Below, piece by piece: positions 48,628-55,989 of a stretch of 64,000 nt of DNA. The stretch is from Labyrinthula sp. Ha. Taxonomy: Eukaryota; Sar; Bigyra; Labyrinthulida; Labyrinthulaceae. The stretch covers positions 620,001 to 684,000 of the forward strand of contig JAALGZ010000008.1 in the NCBI GenBank assembly GCA_015227615.1. Direction: 5' to 3'. Within the stretch, counting starts at the first letter, position 1. Every line of letters starts with the position of its first letter. A program made the position numbers and the translations under genes. The notes under the pieces were generated by a model, which was given only the letters and a program-made list of their open reading frames with translations, was not told the origin of the DNA and searched no databases.

Positions 48628-48757
48628 TGGCCTTCGTCCGTGAAGTTTTATATTTTCTTCGATAGATTGTTAACGCTTAACAGTATTTCACTCGTTACTC
48701 TAGTTTCTAACCGTTATCTAGTCCTGGCGTTCCGACACTCTAGTGCTCTCCACGCCA
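48628..48757 (-). repeat. 3' LTR (130 bp)
   Basis: Identical over all 130 bases to 55856-55985. Read on the minus strand it begins TGGCGTGG and ends AAGGCCA (TG...CA, with TGGC/GCCA ends). It contains a TATAAAA about 20 nt before its end. The last 13 codons and the stop of pol lie inside this LTR (48718-48757). The purine-rich sequence just before it (ACGGAGCGA) is a weak polypurine tract and is itself coding. Confidence 0.92.
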
Positions 48758-51700
48758 TCGCTCCGTATTGGCAACTCCTGACAATACCCTTCAGTGGCTG
48801 CACTAGACGTGTAAGAAAGCTCCTCGCCCACAGCAACCCAGGTTTCGGTGACACAAGGATTCCGAGCGAACAGCTCCACGAAAAATCCATTGTCAAACAT
48901 CCCCTCGATACGTTTCTTTAGTTCATCTGGTTTTTCGTTGCTAGGTAAGCGGGGACTTGTCATAACATCATTTCCCATAACGGGGGTGACCTGGGAGCTC
49001 GGTACGCTTCCTTGCTTAAAGACCAAAAGTTCCTCGACGGCGCTGTGTATCAGTCCGCCGGTGTTCGTCTGTAATTTTCCTTTCTTCGACCTTTTTATCC
49101 AATATAAAGTGTGTTTGAGTTTAAACTGGTTCTTCTTCGCCCATTCCACGGCAGCTTCTCTTGTACTTTTCGTGATCCAGCACATAAAATACCCGTTTCG
49201 GACTATCCTGCCTAGCGGTATCGCCTGGATCTCCTTCAAGCTCATCGTGTTGTATTTGAGCGCTACCCCGCGAACCGGGTTGCTCTGCGCCACTCTCCAA
49301 GGTGGATCGGCCAGTAGCACATCGGGGAGTCTCCCTTTCATATGGAGCAACATAAGCGCGAACCTGTCCCAGTCCAGCTCTCTTACGTCGCACTTCAACG
49401 TAGCAGTATTTGTGGGGACCAAGAGCTCTCGTGTTACCTTCGCATCGTCGTGGAATATATCGTAGCATAACCGAGTTCCATCGCGTTTCGCTAGCCATCC
49501 TGGGAATTTCCCGTGTCGATACACCTGCTCCGCTGTGTCCCCTAAACAAGTTCTAACATGCGACACAAAGTGTAGCGCTTTCTCCAGCTTTGTCTCCCTC
49601 AACTTCAAGTCCCTCCGATCGTCTTTCACTACTTGCATCATCTGGCGTATCTCCTGGCTCAGGCACTCAATTGGTGGAATACGCTGCGTCTTGTCTCTTT
49701 TCCCACGTTCGACATCCAGAAGGAACCGGAGGGAGTCTTCTCGCTCCATCGGGGTCTCATTTCTCCTAAAGAACGGAATATCAACATCCCACTTGCACCT
49801 TGCGTATCTGAACAAGTTGAAGAATCTTCCCGCCAGTCTCTCATATCTTGCCACTATTCTGGATCTCTCCACGTAGAATCGTGTCCCGTATCTCTGCAGG
49901 TTGTCTTCTCTGGCTTTTCCCACGTCCATCTGGAGACCCGAATATTCTTTTATGCTCTGCTTTCCGACTAGTTTCTGCGTTGCTAAATATAAAGACTGCT
50001 TGCTTTTCCCAGGTAGGAAACCTCCTGTAATTATCGGCACGTAATTGCCAAGTCCGAACTTTAGGATGCACCTTTCCAGAACTACATATTCTTCGTCGCT
50101 CCATCTCTGACCTGACGCACGGGCTACTGTTATAGTCTTCATGAGTTGCTTGGAATATTCAATGGCCAAATCCTTTTCGCTAGACGCTCCTAAAGAATAG
50201 ATGAATTGCTTTGTGAGGTCGGGGAGGTCCTCTAACATTGTTTCTAGTGGTTCCCATGTCGCCTCTTCCTCCGGGAACCCTTTCCACTCCACAAGGATCT
50301 GCAGCTGGCCTTGTGAGCTTCTTAACTTTATGAATTTCTCGACCTCCAGCTTGCCCGTATCCGAGGTAAACTGCTTTATTATCGCTTCGTCTGGAATCCA
50401 TCCATCTGGTTCGTAGAATAGGAGTCTTGAAGCGTGGACGATATTTGCTTTTCCGTAGAGATCTTGAACCTCATACACATTCTGGGACACCGACTTCGTC
50501 ATTTGGTATGGCCCGTTCCATCTTAATTTTTCCTTGAATCGCTCCTTTGTGGTATTCGCCCTACTGACTAGCACCCAGTCTCCTTCTTGGAACTGCACCA
50601 CTTTAGTTCCTGGTCGATTGGAGTAAATGTCGTTCTCCCTCTCCCTCACCAGTTTCGTGTGGTCGTACACCTCGCTCCAAAGCTGTTCCAGCTGCTGCCC
50701 CATCTCGTGAACGGTTGATCGCAGTCTCTCCCTATCCAGTGGTGTTCGCAGAACGTTCTTTCCCGTGTTTTCGTCGTATATCACTACCCCGTGGCCATCG
50801 TCGTCGAAGAAGTTATCCTCGTGCTTGAAAAACAAGAATACTTCGTTTGCTGTGAGGCCCTTGTTTATTTTTCTGGGGGTGTTGTTCAGCACATGCTCGA
50901 TCTCCGGCAGCAGCTCAGGCCACTGGTTCGGATCCAGTCGGTACTCCGACACCAGGCTTCGAAGTGCTTTCAGAATGGGTCCATTTGTTGTTTCCACCCC
51001 GCCATTCGTCCAGGGGGCGTATGAGATTGCCCATCGTTGAGTAAATCGAAAGAGTTTTTGCATCCGTGCCATTAAAATATTACAAAAGTGTGAGCCTCTA
51101 TCTGTGAAAAGGGTAAAACCATCGACAAATCCAAAGTGACTTCTCCATCTCATCAGCGTTCTGATCGCTCCTAGAACGTTCGCCTTCTCTTCATACATCA
51201 GCATGCACTTCCTGCTCAGTGAATCCACTAACACCACGATATATCCCGCTGGATTAATATAGAGGTAGTCCATCAGCAAGACATCTCGGCACTTCTTTCC
51301 CAAAATAGTGATATCTCTCGGGCGTCTTATCAGCTTTGGAAATCTTGAGCAGTGGAGGCATCTGGTTCTCAACCTTCTCATTATGTCCTTCAATATCCTC
51401 GTCACCTTACTGTCGAACGTATACTTGGCTTGGAGGTCTTCAAGTTCCCTAGATATATTCCTGTGGATACCTGCGGCGTGAAAATGCAACAAAAACTTTT
51501 GGGAAATATTTTCTGGGATCCATATCTTGCTTCCCCTTTTCACCATTCCTCCCCCTCTTTCGATTTCTGTTTTCTCTGCTTCGGTTATATTTGGGGAGCT
51601 CTTCTGAGCCTCTAAAACTTCTTCCTCAGATAACTGTTTCCAGGAGCCCTCGTACAGCGGTGAGAATATGCTTATTCTCCCGCTTTCGAACTTCTCCCAC

Positions 51701-53373
51701 CATTTAATCCCCTCTTTCACCTTATCCTTAAGTAATTTCCTTGCCCTGCTTCTTTTTGATCTCACTGCTCTTACTAGCTGTAGTTGGGAATGGTTAAGCG
51801 CTTCTCCATCAAGGCCTTCAATGGCGTGTTCGTTTCCCCATCTCGATAAGAGGTCAGCGAACACGTTTCTCTCACCTTCAATATGGTGGACCAAAACATT
51901 ATATCTTTGAAGTCGTAGTCCCCAGCGGTGGAGGCGGTCGGCGTAGCTCCTGTTATCTGCTTGTTGCGGATCCAAGATGTAGACGAGGTTCTTATGATCG
52001 GTGTAGAAGTTTGTCGGCTTTGGGTGTCCAAGAATCATATAATCCAGCCTCTCCCCTATCACCAGGAGGGGGTATAACTCTTTGCTGCTAATATGCCATT
52101 TTACTTGGCTGTCACCAAACTTCCCCGAAAAAAACATAATGGGGAAGTGTATCTGCTCCCTAACCTCGGGTTTCTCTAGCTCGTCGTATCTGCACTGGGT
52201 TACTACGCAGCCCCAATAAAGTTGCGAGGCGTCGGTGAAGACGTTCAGCGCCTTATCTGGGTCGTACATTTGTAGGAACTTTCTAGCAGCTCGAGACAGT
52301 GTTCTGAGAAAACCAGTCCATGCATCGTGTAGCTCATCGGTCCATTCAAACTCCAGGTTCAGCTTCTTGAGCTCATTCATACTTCCACCCATATTTACCT
52401 GTTCTCCCAGTGTCTGTCTGTACTCAACCAACCCTGGTATGGTGGGGGATAACCACGTGGCTAAATATAGTATCTCAGCCATTTGATGGTGGTAGGTGGG
52501 TTTTGTAGTTCTCAGAATTTTCGCGTAATATTCTTCTAAATAGGACCAGCCGCGACTCGTGATTCTCCTCCCACAATACTCTATTTGCTTCGCTGCAAAC
52601 ACACATTTCTTCAGACTCATCCTTATCTGTTTCTCTTGAAGTTGCAAGATGAACCGCGATATCAAGCCCAAATACTCCTCCTCCGTTTTCGCGAATAAGC
52701 ATGTATCATCTATCCACTGCATCACTCCTGTTCCTGTATTCATGTACATCCCTGTCGGTTTGCAGAGGTGCTCTACGATCAGCTGGTGGAAAAGCATCGG
52801 GGAGTTCGTCCATCCCTGGGGCATCGAGCATTGGTGGTACACCGTGCCCCAGGGTGTCATCAACCCGAAAAACTTCCTACACTCTTCCTTAACTTTAACT
52901 TGGTCGTATCCCGACTTGATATCCAGCGTTCCAAAGATCTGGGCACCGGAAGTCCTGCTTAGTTGATGTTCAAGTACAGGCAGCTGCTCCGCCGACCCCA
53001 CAGTCCACTTGTTCAGAGGCTTCATATTCACCACCATCCGATACATAGCAGGGCCCTTTTTTGGCACAATGAAGACTCTTGCTGCGAAGTGTGCGTTGTC
53101 GGGGTCTGCTTGAACTATTAGCCTGTCTTTCAGCATGGTCTCAATTTTCGTACGGAGCCAGCGTTCCTGCTTATGCCCCACGGCTCTTGCTTTCACAGTT
53201 ATGCTTTCCGGGGCGCTTTTCATTAGCCTACAGGTTATGGGAGGTAGTTTGCTTAGGTGAAGTCTGCTTTCTGGAAGTGCAAAGACGGACCAGTTATCTT
53301 TTAGTAATGCAGCTAGTTTCTTGTAGAAATCTTCAGTAAATTCGGAACGTTCCCGCACCTCTTTTATCTTCAA
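48718..53373 (-). CDS. pol: Pol polyprotein: RT, RNase H, integrase, chromodomain, SANT-like, MT-A70 adenine methyltransferase
   Basis: The 1,551-codon frame is counted from a TTG at 53373; there is no ATG near the start. It is in the same frame as gag and begins right after gag's UAG, so it is probably made by readthrough. Reverse transcriptase spans about 45-290, with DIKSGYDQV (D151) and the polymerase motif WIDDT (D222-D223). RNase H spans about 375-510 (FTDAS D381, E432, FYTDHK D459, D507). Integrase has H632/H637/C672/C675 and D702, D758, E794, an exact D,D(35)E. The chromodomain is at about 1009-1055 (LVEWKGFPEEEATWEP). The SANT/Myb-like domain is at about 1086-1140 (QRWSDEEYVVLERCILKFG). 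MT-A70 is at about 1320-1520: CDVRELDWDRF, DPPW at 1356-1359, TMSLKEIQAIPL, GYFMCWITKS, and NEKPDEL followed by FFVELFAR and WVAVGEEL. The methyltransferase has every landmark of the METTL3/MTA1 superfamily. Its substrate, DNA or RNA, is unknown. Confidence 0.93.
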   Translation of the reverse strand: MKIKEVRERSEFTEDFYKKLAALLKDNWSVFALPESRLHLSKLPPITCRLMKSAPESITVKARAVGHKQERWLRTKIETMLKDRLIVQADPDNAHFAARVFIVPKKGPAMYRMVVNMKPLNKWTVGSAEQLPVLEHQLSRTSGAQIFGTLDIKSGYDQVKVKEECRKFFGLMTPWGTVYHQCSMPQGWTNSPMLFHQLIVEHLCKPTGMYMNTGTGVMQWIDDTCLFAKTEEEYLGLISRFILQLQEKQIRMSLKKCVFAAKQIEYCGRRITSRGWSYLEEYYAKILRTTKPTYHHQMAEILYLATWLSPTIPGLVEYRQTLGEQVNMGGSMNELKKLNLEFEWTDELHDAWTGFLRTLSRAARKFLQMYDPDKALNVFTDASQLYWGCVVTQCRYDELEKPEVREQIHFPIMFFSGKFGDSQVKWHISSKELYPLLVIGERLDYMILGHPKPTNFYTDHKNLVYILDPQQADNRSYADRLHRWGLRLQRYNVLVHHIEGERNVFADLLSRWGNEHAIEGLDGEALNHSQLQLVRAVRSKRSRARKLLKDKVKEGIKWWEKFESGRISIFSPLYEGSWKQLSEEEVLEAQKSSPNITEAEKTEIERGGGMVKRGSKIWIPENISQKFLLHFHAAGIHRNISRELEDLQAKYTFDSKVTRILKDIMRRLRTRCLHCSRFPKLIRRPRDITILGKKCRDVLLMDYLYINPAGYIVVLVDSLSRKCMLMYEEKANVLGAIRTLMRWRSHFGFVDGFTLFTDRGSHFCNILMARMQKLFRFTQRWAISYAPWTNGGVETTNGPILKALRSLVSEYRLDPNQWPELLPEIEHVLNNTPRKINKGLTANEVFLFFKHEDNFFDDDGHGVVIYDENTGKNVLRTPLDRERLRSTVHEMGQQLEQLWSEVYDHTKLVRERENDIYSNRPGTKVVQFQEGDWVLVSRANTTKERFKEKLRWNGPYQMTKSVSQNVYEVQDLYGKANIVHASRLLFYEPDGWIPDEAIIKQFTSDTGKLEVEKFIKLRSSQGQLQILVEWKGFPEEEATWEPLETMLEDLPDLTKQFIYSLGASSEKDLAIEYSKQLMKTITVARASGQRWSDEEYVVLERCILKFGLGNYVPIITGGFLPGKSKQSLYLATQKLVGKQSIKEYSGLQMDVGKAREDNLQRYGTRFYVERSRIVARYERLAGRFFNLFRYARCKWDVDIPFFRRNETPMEREDSLRFLLDVERGKRDKTQRIPPIECLSQEIRQMMQVVKDDRRDLKLRETKLEKALHFVSHVRTCLGDTAEQVYRHGKFPGWLAKRDGTRLCYDIFHDDAKVTRELLVPTNTATLKCDVRELDWDRFALMLLHMKGRLPDVLLADPPWRVAQSNPVRGVALKYNTMSLKEIQAIPLGRIVRNGYFMCWITKSTREAAVEWAKKNQFKLKHTLYWIKRSKKGKLQTNTGGLIHSAVEELLVFKQGSVPSSQVTPVMGNDVMTSPRLPSNEKPDELKKRIEGMFDNGFFVELFARNPCVTETWVAVGEELSYTSSAATEGYCQELPIRSDGVESTRVSERQD

Positions 53374-53376
53374 ATC

Positions 53377-53385
53377 GATCTAATC
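53377..53385 (-). promoter_or_regulatory. In-frame UAG at the gag-pol junction (candidate readthrough site)
   Basis: On the minus strand the context is CAG GAT TAG ATC GAT TTG. Gag and Pol share one reading frame with only this stop between them, and Pol has no ATG of its own near its start. That arrangement is what retroviruses with UAG suppression use. Other genes here end in TAG (for example at 3489 and 6779), so the codon is a normal stop. Confidence 0.7.
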
Positions 53386-55809
53386 CTGTACCTTAGACTT
53401 CTCGTTTTCGAACGTCTCTCCTTCCTCCAGTCTTTCGTCCTCCACAGCGTCTTCCAGTATTGTGTCTCCTCCTACCGCCGCTTCGAAGTGCTCCATATCG
53501 TCACCATCGTCAGGGTTGCTAAATAAAATCGGCTGGGCTCTGGGGAGTCCAAGTTTTCTGCATTTCTCCTCGTGTTCCTGCGCCTGCTTCTCGAATTCCG
53601 CTCTTGTTTCTTTTGGTGCGAAGCTGCGTTGAGCGATTGTTTTCATGCTAACGCTGTTTATAGAATACTTGGGCTCCTTCGTCATGTCTCTAATCTGGAC
53701 TCTTCGGATTCTTGGGGTGTCTGGTCGGTCCCCTTCCTCTCCCCTCTTTTTTAGCTTGGTTCTGACTTCGTTCGGCAGCTTCTGGAGTACTTGCTCAGGT
53801 AACGACTGGAACGCGTCTAATTCTAGCCTCCCTATTAACAGATCTTTCCATTGAGTTGATACTAGGTATATAGTAACATCTCCAAAATAAACTGGTGGCC
53901 CGTCATCCACATGGACTCTTATTTCTATGATACCTTGGTGGTCGGCTTCAGTGACTGTATCCGTATCTGCGAGAAAGAACTCCATAGGTTTAATCTTTAC
54001 TACTCCAGAACAAAGATGGCCATGTAACTCCAAACTTCCGATGGTAAAAGTAGCTCCACTGTCGAGGCATCCTGGTACTTGCTCCCAAAGGTTCTTTATC
54101 GGGTTATAGACCTGCAGGTGGTACCCTCTAAACTGGAACTTCGCTCTGCTAACTCTCGGGATATCCTTCTTTGATGCTTCTGCACTTCCTGGGGACATCA
54201 GTTTTGCTTCATTGTTCCCTGGTGGAGCCTCCTGCGCATCGGTAACTCTACTTGCGTTGTGCCTGTTAAAATTTGGGGTTGGCTGGCGGTTCTGCAGCGG
54301 CGTTATTTCCTTCTGCTCCGCGCTCCCCCTTGTATCCCTCTTATTGTACTCTTTGTCTTTTTGTCCTTCGTCTTTCTTATCGCAGTACCGGGCTATGTGG
54401 CCAAAACCGTTACAGCGACGACATTGAATTCGTGGGCACCGAAAAGTTCTATGTTGTGTGGACGAACACAGCCTGCAGGGGTTGTTGGTGGTTTTGTTGT
54501 CTCTAAAGCTTGTTCTGTTGTATCCTTGTGGTGTTGTCGGTGGTCTTCCTTGGTTGGTCTGATAGGTCGCTGCAGCAGTTCTCCCCGTGGTCTTCTTTCT
54601 TCGTTGTCTCACCTGCAAGTTTTCTATGGCCTCGTACTTTGACATGCTCTTGTGGAACTGCTCCAAGGTTTTCACGTCTGGATTTTCTTCTTTATAATCG
54701 GTCCAGCTCATCTGAAAGTATGTAGGTAATTTCTGAACTAATATTTTCAGCATTTGTTTCTGGATCGCTGCAGAAGATATCTGGATGATGCCAACTAAAT
54801 CTCTCGCCTCCTGCACATATCTCTCCGGCGCCTCCCTTCCGGTCAGCGCGTCTTTGGGCCAAGACAATTTCAGTCTCAGCTTCGACAGTGCTTGGCTATT
54901 GTGGCTCTCATCCAGTATACCTTTGTAATTTTTCAGGTAGTCAATGATTGCCTGATCGTCGTGGATATCGACACCTTGTGCTTGGAGGCGCTCCAATATA
55001 TCGTTTGACATCCACTCCGTGACGCTTATATCGATGTTCGAAAGCTGGGCTCTGTTCCTCAGCTTTTCGATTCTAAGAAGAAATTCAGACATCTCTCCCC
55101 TCCCCAGGGATTTCAGTTTTTCTATCTTTGGTGGGCGGAAACCTGGGGCAGAGTTTCGTGGTGGCGGTGGGGTGCTACTTCCTTCAGGCCCTTTCGCGGG
55201 ACTTCGTAGTTCGTTAACGAGGGCTAGTAGCAGTTCATTTGTGGAGAATCGTCCAGGGTCGGTTAGGGGGGTATTCTGCATGCCCTCCTCTTCTCGTTTC
55301 ACTTCGATGTTCTCACGCGGACCAGGCTCTGGCGACCCTGGTGCTTGTGGCTCCGTACGTGACAGGTCCGGAAGCTCTCCTTGGCTTGCGCCGGGGGATC
55401 CATTATTTCTGATGGGGGATCCTGACCCCATCCTAGTAGTAGGCCCTCCCCCTGTGGCCGGGGGGGTCCTATGTCTCCTTGGCAATGGTGTGAAGTCTGG
55501 TTGCGGTGTGGTCCGGCTGGGTGCAGTCTGGGGAGTCTGCGGAATAGTCGGGGACGTATCAGGTCTCGTCAGCTCCCGTAGAGAGGCTCTTAATCTGGCG
55601 ATCTCGTCATTCGCTGTTCTCAGGTCCTCCTGTGTACGGGTAAGCTGTGTAGCCAATATGTCCTCCATCTCCTCCTCGGTCGGCTCCGGAGCTGCTTCGT
55701 CCGTGTTTACGTCCCTCTCTCCAGGTAGGGGCTGTCGTGGTCGTGGTGCACCATCCGGGCCTAGTTCCCAGAAGTCCTCATTCTCCATTGCTTTTTGTTC
55801 ATTATTCAT
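53380..55809 (-). CDS. gag: Gag with two zinc knuckles and aspartic protease
   Basis: An 809-residue ORF starting at ATG 55809, 46 nt inside the 5' LTR. Residues 1-220 are Pro/Ser/Glu-rich and disordered, with a coiled-coil stretch at about 45-80. A helical capsid-like region is at about 225-400 (WPKDALTGREAPERYVQEARDL). Two canonical CX2CX4HX4C zinc knuckles follow (C445-C458, C463-C476). A retropepsin-type aspartic protease has DSGA at 583-586 and a flap/ILG-like segment (WKDLLIGRLELDAF) at about 654-667. The C-terminal 140 residues are charged and acidic. So protease is joined to Gag, not Pol. The ORF ends in UAG, followed in frame by pol. Capsid and knuckles package RNA; protease cuts the polyprotein. 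Confidence 0.93.
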   Translation of the reverse strand: MNNEQKAMENEDFWELGPDGAPRPRQPLPGERDVNTDEAAPEPTEEEMEDILATQLTRTQEDLRTANDEIARLRASLRELTRPDTSPTIPQTPQTAPSRTTPQPDFTPLPRRHRTPPATGGGPTTRMGSGSPIRNNGSPGASQGELPDLSRTEPQAPGSPEPGPRENIEVKREEEGMQNTPLTDPGRFSTNELLLALVNELRSPAKGPEGSSTPPPPRNSAPGFRPPKIEKLKSLGRGEMSEFLLRIEKLRNRAQLSNIDISVTEWMSNDILERLQAQGVDIHDDQAIIDYLKNYKGILDESHNSQALSKLRLKLSWPKDALTGREAPERYVQEARDLVGIIQISSAAIQKQMLKILVQKLPTYFQMSWTDYKEENPDVKTLEQFHKSMSKYEAIENLQVRQRRKKTTGRTAAATYQTNQGRPPTTPQGYNRTSFRDNKTTNNPCRLCSSTQHRTFRCPRIQCRRCNGFGHIARYCDKKDEGQKDKEYNKRDTRGSAEQKEITPLQNRQPTPNFNRHNASRVTDAQEAPPGNNEAKLMSPGSAEASKKDIPRVSRAKFQFRGYHLQVYNPIKNLWEQVPGCLDSGATFTIGSLELHGHLCSGVVKIKPMEFFLADTDTVTEADHQGIIEIRVHVDDGPPVYFGDVTIYLVSTQWKDLLIGRLELDAFQSLPEQVLQKLPNEVRTKLKKRGEEGDRPDTPRIRRVQIRDMTKEPKYSINSVSMKTIAQRSFAPKETRAEFEKQAQEHEEKCRKLGLPRAQPILFSNPDDGDDMEHFEAAVGGDTILEDAVEDERLEEGETFENEKSKVQD

Positions 55810-55843
55810 TGTTTCGTTTGTTTCAATCTATAGTTTCTGTGCT

Positions 55844-55855
55844 TTGCTCGAGCAA
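55844..55855 (-). other. Palindrome at the primer-binding position
   Basis: The 12 bases just inside the 5' LTR, where a tRNA primer normally anneals, are a perfect palindrome (TTGCTCGAGCAA). They do not begin with TGG, so a standard tRNA 3'-CCA priming site is absent. Self-priming or internal-tRNA priming is possible. Confidence 0.5.
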
Positions 55856-55985
55856 TGGCCTTCGTCCGTGAAGTTTTATATTTTCTTCGATAGATTGTTA
55901 ACGCTTAACAGTATTTCACTCGTTACTCTAGTTTCTAACCGTTATCTAGTCCTGGCGTTCCGACACTCTAGTGCTCTCCACGCCA
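55856..55985 (-). repeat. 5' LTR (130 bp)
   Basis: Identical to the LTR at 48628-48757. It should hold the element's promoter. On the minus strand the only TATA-like box (TATAAAA) lies about 20 nt from the LTR's inner end, which would leave a very short R-U5. Confidence 0.92.
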
Positions 55986-55989
55986 CAGG
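55986..55989. repeat. Target-site duplication (right), CAGG
   Basis: Copy of the CAGG at 48624-48627, directly outside the right LTR. Confidence 0.7.

Follow-up and report, generated by a model that had tools for sequence, protein, structure and literature searches.

Chromoviruses are Ty3 elements with a chromodomain on the integrase, and their gag-protease, reverse transcriptase (RT), RNase H, integrase and chromodomain follow each other in this order. Some retrotransposons also carry cytosine methyltransferases, as a first-pass annotation of the DNA studied here had noted, and among them is a Gypsy element with such an enzyme in its Pol (PMC5890265). This element, KnitGypsy-Dnmt3, is an LTR element whose DNA methyltransferase is described as being under purifying selection (KnitGypsy Ka/Ks < 0.2), and in the Symbiodinium elements SymbioLINE-Dnmt and SymbioDIRS-Dnmt3 a DNA methyltransferase likewise lies inside a retrotransposon ORF (PMC5890265). 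The enzymes of KnitGypsy and Symbiodinium are C5-cytosine methyltransferases of the Dnmt family. An adenine methyltransferase is present in DIRS elements, but this is a Dam-like enzyme with bacterial similarity in elements that use a tyrosine recombinase (as cited in PMC5890265). In ciliates, 6mA is written by the MTA1c/AMT1 complex, which contains MTA1, MTA9, p1 and p2 and methylates DNA (PMC12695648; PMC9174199; PMC9852454). The subunits p1 and p2 are homeobox-like DNA-binding proteins that help MTA1 to form a DNA channel (PMC9174199; PMC9852454), and the survey in PMC12695648 describes them as co-occurring exclusively with AMT1 across eukaryotes.

Here, we describe a Ty3-type element of Labyrinthula sp. 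Ha that lies in a window of 64,000 nucleotides (contig JAALGZ010000008.1, positions 620,001 to 684,000), the whole stretch of DNA that was analysed. Its Pol follows the chromovirus order and then continues for about 490 residues beyond the chromodomain, into a p1-like domain and an MT-A70 domain of the AMT1 type. The element resembles KnitGypsy and the Symbiodinium elements in having a DNA methyltransferase family member in a retrotransposon ORF, but the enzyme is an AMT1-type MT-A70 adenine methyltransferase with a fused p1-like DNA-binding domain. With DIRS it shares the adenine methyltransferase, which is here of a eukaryotic type and in an integrase-bearing Ty3 element; a Pfam scan of pol contains integrase and MT-A70, and neither a tyrosine recombinase nor a Dam-type enzyme.

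Structure of the Element

All features are on the minus strand and are given in window positions:

55986-55989, minus: target-site duplication CCTG, 5' flank (flanks inspected)
48628-55985, minus: Ty3-type LTR element, 7,358 bp
55856-55985, minus: 5' LTR, 130 bp, TG...CA, 0 mismatches to the 3' LTR; also found by repeat search
53380-55809, minus: gag-protease ORF, 809 aa, with two CX2CX4HX4C zinc knuckles and a DSGA protease motif (by pattern)
53380-53382, minus: in-frame TAG between gag and pol (ORF map)
48718-53379, minus: pol ORF, 1553 aa from stop to stop, first 52 codons without ATG
52567-53067, minus: reverse transcriptase (RVT_1, 4.6e-23)
51901-52263, minus: RNase H (RT_RNaseH, 3e-17)
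50974-51306, minus: integrase core, approximate (D-D(35)-E spacing; rve 5.9e-4, below cut-off)
50203-50346, minus: chromodomain (PF00385, 1.3e-8)
49891-50106, minus: p1/AMTP1-like homeobox/Myb-like domain (p1 match 4.3e-11 in PDB)
48820-49323, minus: MT-A70 (AMT1/MTA1-like) methyltransferase domain (Pfam 9.3e-18; MTA1 1.5e-30)
49297-49308, minus: catalytic motif DPPW (sequence motif)
48628-48757, minus: 3' LTR, 130 bp, TG...CA, containing the pol stop codon
48624-48627, minus: target-site duplication CCTG, 3' flank (flanks inspected)

The TG...CA LTRs, the short duplication, the domain order, the zinc knuckles and the protease motif are chromovirus features, and the RT of the relatives P0002 and P0003 (see below) has Ty3 as its best PDB match. 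The rve score of the integrase is 20.5 bits against a Pfam cut-off of 32.6, and the gag-protease ORF had no match in Pfam. Within Pol the order is RT, RNase H, integrase, chromodomain, p1-like domain and MT-A70, in one frame that is open from position 53379 to the stop at 48718-48720, inside the 3' LTR. The first-pass annotation had placed an MT-A70 methyltransferase at 48718-49420 (pol residues 1319-1551) and assigned it to the element because the frame is uninterrupted and stops within the LTR, and both the frame and the assignment hold. The p1-like domain between chromodomain and MT-A70 had been overlooked.

Pol lies in the same frame as gag and has no ATG for 52 codons, which indicates that the TAG between them is probably read through. 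An altered genetic code is a less probable explanation than stop read-through, since 4 of 12 host ORFs checked end in TAG, as does pol itself. A search near the TAG for RNA structure that could serve read-through found nothing above shuffled sequences.

By eye, the window element has no tRNA-type TGG start after the 5' LTR and no clear polypurine tract. The palindrome TTGCTCGAGCAA is found at 55844-55855, directly after the 5' LTR, where a tRNA-type primer-binding site would be expected, and given this palindrome the priming of the element may be unusual. The LTR has eight matches in the host genome, of which two are the element's own LTRs, two (85%) flank a decayed relative on contig C90, and four are at 71-88%; the subfamily of the window element is rare in the host genome. 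The genes around the element are eukaryotic (Hop2-like, vasohibin, carnitine acyltransferase, GH5). Its GC content is 48% vs 33-37% in the flanks, and third-position GC is 0.52-0.57 vs 0.22-0.34 in 12 host ORFs of the window. Together with the identical LTRs, this contrast could reflect a recent horizontal arrival or merely transposon codon use.

Identity of the MT-A70 and p1-Like Domains

The proposal of the first-pass annotation that a Ty3-type Pol contains an MT-A70 domain is borne out by the profile search, in which Pfam MT-A70 matched residues 1351-1518 of 1551 with 65 bits (E = 9.3e-18; cut-off 23.9). Among solved MT-A70 proteins, the domain of the window element scores 109 bits against MTA1 (1.5e-30) and 34 bits against METTL3 (8e-8). 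A profile built from four elements gave 197 bits for MTA1, 113 for METTL3, 55 for METTL14, 34 for MTA9 and 33 for "Methyltransferase-like protein 2", which we take to be METTL4. By sequence, the nearest solved MT-A70 protein is MTA1/AMT1 and not METTL3 or METTL14.

The p1-like domain, Pol residues 1090-1161, matches the p1 subunit of the MTA1 complex from Tetrahymena (4e-11), and the only other PDB match of this domain at E ≤ 1 is p2, weakly (0.09-0.15). The corresponding parts of P0002 and P0003 match p1 at 1.8e-14 and 4.8e-15, respectively. The identification of both domains, as p1-like and as AMT1/MTA1-like MT-A70, is well supported by these matches. Given the function described for p1 and p2, the element thus holds, fused to each other, homologues of two subunits of a single DNA-methylating complex. 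It differs from MTA1c in that these parts belong to a mobile polyprotein and that the SAM-pocket loops of the window copy are changed; no p2 or MTA9 part was recognised in the Pfam scans and the list of matches to solved proteins, which are general rather than dedicated searches.

Recurrence in the Host Genome and in Relatives

A search of the host genome (50.8 Mb, 153 contigs) with pol yielded 49 matches, which fall into the 30 best loci among 1,067 candidates. Excluding the window, the main stretches of these loci are 30-72% identical to the window element, and the main matched stretch is free of stops in 13 of the 30, the window among them. RT and p1-like parts are present in all 30. MT-A70 was found by local tblastn in 29; at the remaining locus (L105) it lies beyond the stretch that was cut out and was matched in the pol search. 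The p1-like and MT-A70 parts thus occur together in all of the 30 best of 1,067 pol loci, a sample biased towards copies with the module because the query includes it. This rejects a one-off capture by the window copy, which, in the form of other copies that lack the domain, the first-pass annotation had named as the finding that would speak against its proposal. Together with the E-values, the recurrence also excludes chance as the source of the domain arrangement.

The neighbourhoods of the single domains point the same way. In an MT-A70 profile search the best 150 of 354 first-look candidates were scored, all of them above the cut-off; upstream of 122 of these, at a distance of 0.3-2.2 kb and on the same strand, the lists place a p1-like part; 136 have either a p1-like or an RNase H part from the lists nearby, and 14 have neither. 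A crude control with random places, drawn without weighting contigs by size, gave 6 of 2000. For these counts two p1-like searches (best 150 of 349 and best 150 of 291) were combined by hand into 214 places, RNase H places were the best 150 of 379 candidates, and a further 13 MT-A70 places were likewise entered by hand. A listed p1-like part also lies 120-900 nt downstream of 118 of 148 chromodomains (148 matches from the best 150 of 275 candidates). One of the 14 MT-A70 places near neither part is the host's own AMT1: among 60 loci from the pol and MT-A70 searches, the p1-like part is lacking only in L118 (G000:C91:220662-221273), a canonical AMT1 gene with 66% identity to P0008 over 205 residues. 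On contig C132 (G000:C132:835172-842912), two MT-A70 copies of equal score and orientation lie 7.2 kb apart and are perhaps tandem elements.

Ty3 elements without the module may exist in the host, since the lists give a p1-like or MT-A70 part downstream for 83 of the best 150 of 379 RNase H places and none for the other 67. The 67 places were not accepted as a count of module-free elements, because the lists compared end at the best-scoring places and the one of the 67 that was read (C70, L141) contains both MT-A70 (5e-18) and the p1-like part (4e-8), in a frame without stops over at least the stretch between the p1-like part and DPPW.

Protein searches found full-length relatives of the same architecture (P0002-P0004; 1,987-2,015 aa, ENA) as well as the partial relatives P0005, P0006 and P0010. 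P0002-P0004 seem to come from other organisms, since none of the host matches listed is more than 38% identical to P0003 in the p1-like part. P0007 was considered as a second organism and rejected, being 93% identical to host locus L097 over 295 aa; it remains as a row in the trees. No relative of the whole Pol was found in viral contigs or genome contigs.

Selection and Catalytic Residues

Selection was estimated by the Nei-Gojobori method for pairs with dS of 0.08-1.0. Median dN/dS is 0.14 for MT-A70 (64 pairs; 0.05-0.28 in 12 independent pairs, 4 of which include a locus with an internal stop, stop codons being skipped), 0.10 for the p1-like part (38 pairs; 0.03-0.25 in 9 independent pairs) and 0.14 for RT (only 6 pairs; 0.08-0.32 in 4 independent pairs). 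Purifying selection on both captured domains appears to be about as strong as that on the RT, for which pairs are few. These values, the frame that runs uninterrupted into the LTR and the recurrence of this arrangement at the best 30 pol loci refute the explanation that the domain is a neutral passenger or an annotation accident, with a host gene that lies beside one element by chance; nothing speaks in its favour and its probability is close to nil.

The residues known from MTA1 were surveyed in 58 element loci, which represent 57 elements (L139 and L099 are the same element; L105 was left out). In MTA1 numbering, Asp209 is kept in 56, Lys334 in 57, Phe355 in 57, Arg357 in all 58 and Asn360 in 44. 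Position 182 is D in 39 loci, N in 7 and uncovered in 12, and positions 370 and 371 are uncovered in 25. Loss of Arg358 was considered as a mark of all elements and rejected, as R is kept in 19 of 58 loci and K is found in 9. The catalytic motif is DPPW in 31 loci, DPAW in 15, DPPY in 7 and another sequence in 5, which may leave some of the elements with little or no catalytic activity. The DPAW type, with its 15 loci in the residue survey, includes L111, L112, L113, L116, L119, L121 and L124.

The window copy keeps DPPW, D182, K334, E353, F355, R357 and E371, and has P, C and E at positions 359, 360 and 370, which are in or beside two loops that in MTA1 are kept open by p2. N360A abolishes the activity of MTA1, N359A or N370A reduces it, and MTA1 requires p2 for SAM binding (PMC9174199). 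Alanine at the METTL3 residues that match positions 370 and 371 in our own alignments cut activity to background (PMC5023411). With positions 359, 360 and 370 changed, the enzyme of the window copy may be weak, may bind SAM differently or may not need p2.

These changes, the DPAW motif in 15 and the DPPY motif in 7 of 58 loci, and the dN/dS of pairs of the DPAW type, which is still low, would fit a module that serves as a tether or reader and steers the integrase to host AMT1 chromatin (linkers close to start sites that are rich in 6mA), and whose own methylation is weak or not needed. The chromodomain, a known tether, adjoins the module. Asp209, Lys334 and Arg357 are nevertheless kept in 56, 57 and 58 of 58 loci, and catalytic and SAM-binding residues are not expected to persist in a pure tether. 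We consider this explanation unlikely, though worth keeping in view.

Phylogeny of the MT-A70 Domain

The MT-A70 domain is short and the branches of its trees are long. The comparison with known MT-A70 families that the first-pass annotation had proposed places the elements with AMT1 in a small tree, and this grouping does not carry over to trees with phage rows or with more rows. In the tree of 11 rows, seven elements and AMT1 stand apart from METTL3/14 (98/96), and a grouping of the elements with METTL3 is rejected (p-AU 0.021). When phage rows are included, AMT1 joins METTL3 or METTL3/14 and not the elements (91/83, 88/80); the elements with AMT1 (p-AU 0.31 and 0.18) and the elements with METTL3 (p-AU 0.32) are then both not rejected. 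In the largest tree (31 rows) the elements do not form one clade, and L111, L113, L125 and L126 join METTL3/14 (91/91). Viral MT-A70 loci (80 of 302) served as tree rows only; 12 were chosen, one with a stop was left out and 11 were used. The order of chromodomain, p1-like domain and MT-A70 is constant, and this constancy would speak for a single capture of the module.

The trees bear on the substrate. An enzyme that acts on RNA, and places m6A on the genomic RNA of the element with an effect on translation, packaging or sensing, would be in line with an MT-A70 family that also includes the RNA writers METTL3/14 and with the four element types that join these in the 31-row tree. Sequence scores favour MTA1, however, the p1-like domain has its place in a complex that methylates DNA, and the smaller tree rejects the METTL3 grouping, which the trees with phage rows do not. 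Because the nearest relative is the DNA writer MTA1/AMT1 and a p1-like domain is fused to the enzyme, the choice tilts to DNA, and RNA as the substrate seems quite improbable.

Proposed Function

The activity, the substrate and the benefit of the module are what we infer from sequence comparison. At slightly better than an even chance, we favour the reading that a chromovirus lineage captured a p1-AMT1 6mA writer and uses it to mark new copies of itself as permissive chromatin. A Ty3 lineage with a chromodomain would have acquired two subunits of the nuclear 6mA writer, p1 (AMTP1) for DNA binding and AMT1 (MTA1) for catalysis, and would carry the two, fused, at the C-terminus of Pol as a module that travels into the nucleus together with the integrase. 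There, p1 and the chromodomain would keep the module on the target chromatin, where it would methylate adenine, probably at ApT, in the newly made and unmethylated DNA of the element, perhaps with AMT6/7 and p2 of the host as partners; the host does encode a canonical AMT1 (L118). Unlike other transposable elements, the new copy would thereby bear a mark of chromatin that permits transcription. In the surveyed species with AMT1, 6mA at ApT accompanies active genes and transposable elements are not enriched (PMC12695648), so an element that marks itself would gain expression. More tentatively, and at somewhat less than even probability, this would be an old Ty3 lineage with a working two-subunit 6mA writer, whose new copies are ApT-methylated on arrival and escape the default state of transposons.

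The module might instead antagonise the AMT1 complex of the host or compete with it, for example by binding AMT6/7 and p2, and so counter host control. In line with this, counterparts of p1 and AMT1 were recognised in the element but none of p2 or MTA9, and the host has an AMT1 of its own. The catalytic residues are retained, however, and in the survey 6mA is linked to active and not to silenced chromatin (PMC12695648), which leaves an antagonist with a small probability.

Significance

Retrotransposons with a methyltransferase are already known (PMC5890265). The first-pass annotation knew of no Ty3 element with an MT-A70 domain, and full-text term searches of PMC, a collection that leaves the subscription literature largely outside, likewise gave no earlier description that we recognised, either of such an element or of a Ty3 element that combines p1 with a 6mA enzyme of the AMT1 type. 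In the main text of PMC11441545 the sole mention of MT-A70 is in the reference list, and a term search of the main text of PMC6338049 found no mention.

An element with a 6mA writer and a DNA-binding subunit would be the adenine counterpart of the retrotransposons that carry Dnmt enzymes. In published descriptions (PMC12695648), eukaryotic 6mA marks active genes and shows no enrichment in transposons, and the element opens the direct question whether its copies, unlike other transposons, are 6mA-marked and expressed. With 122 of the best 150 MT-A70 places having a listed p1-like part upstream, the genome also offers more than 100 natural p1-AMT1 fusion variants for the study of AMT1. If the proposed function is true, part of the 6mA landscape of the host would be written by transposons, since 136 of the best 150 MT-A70 places lie in element surroundings.
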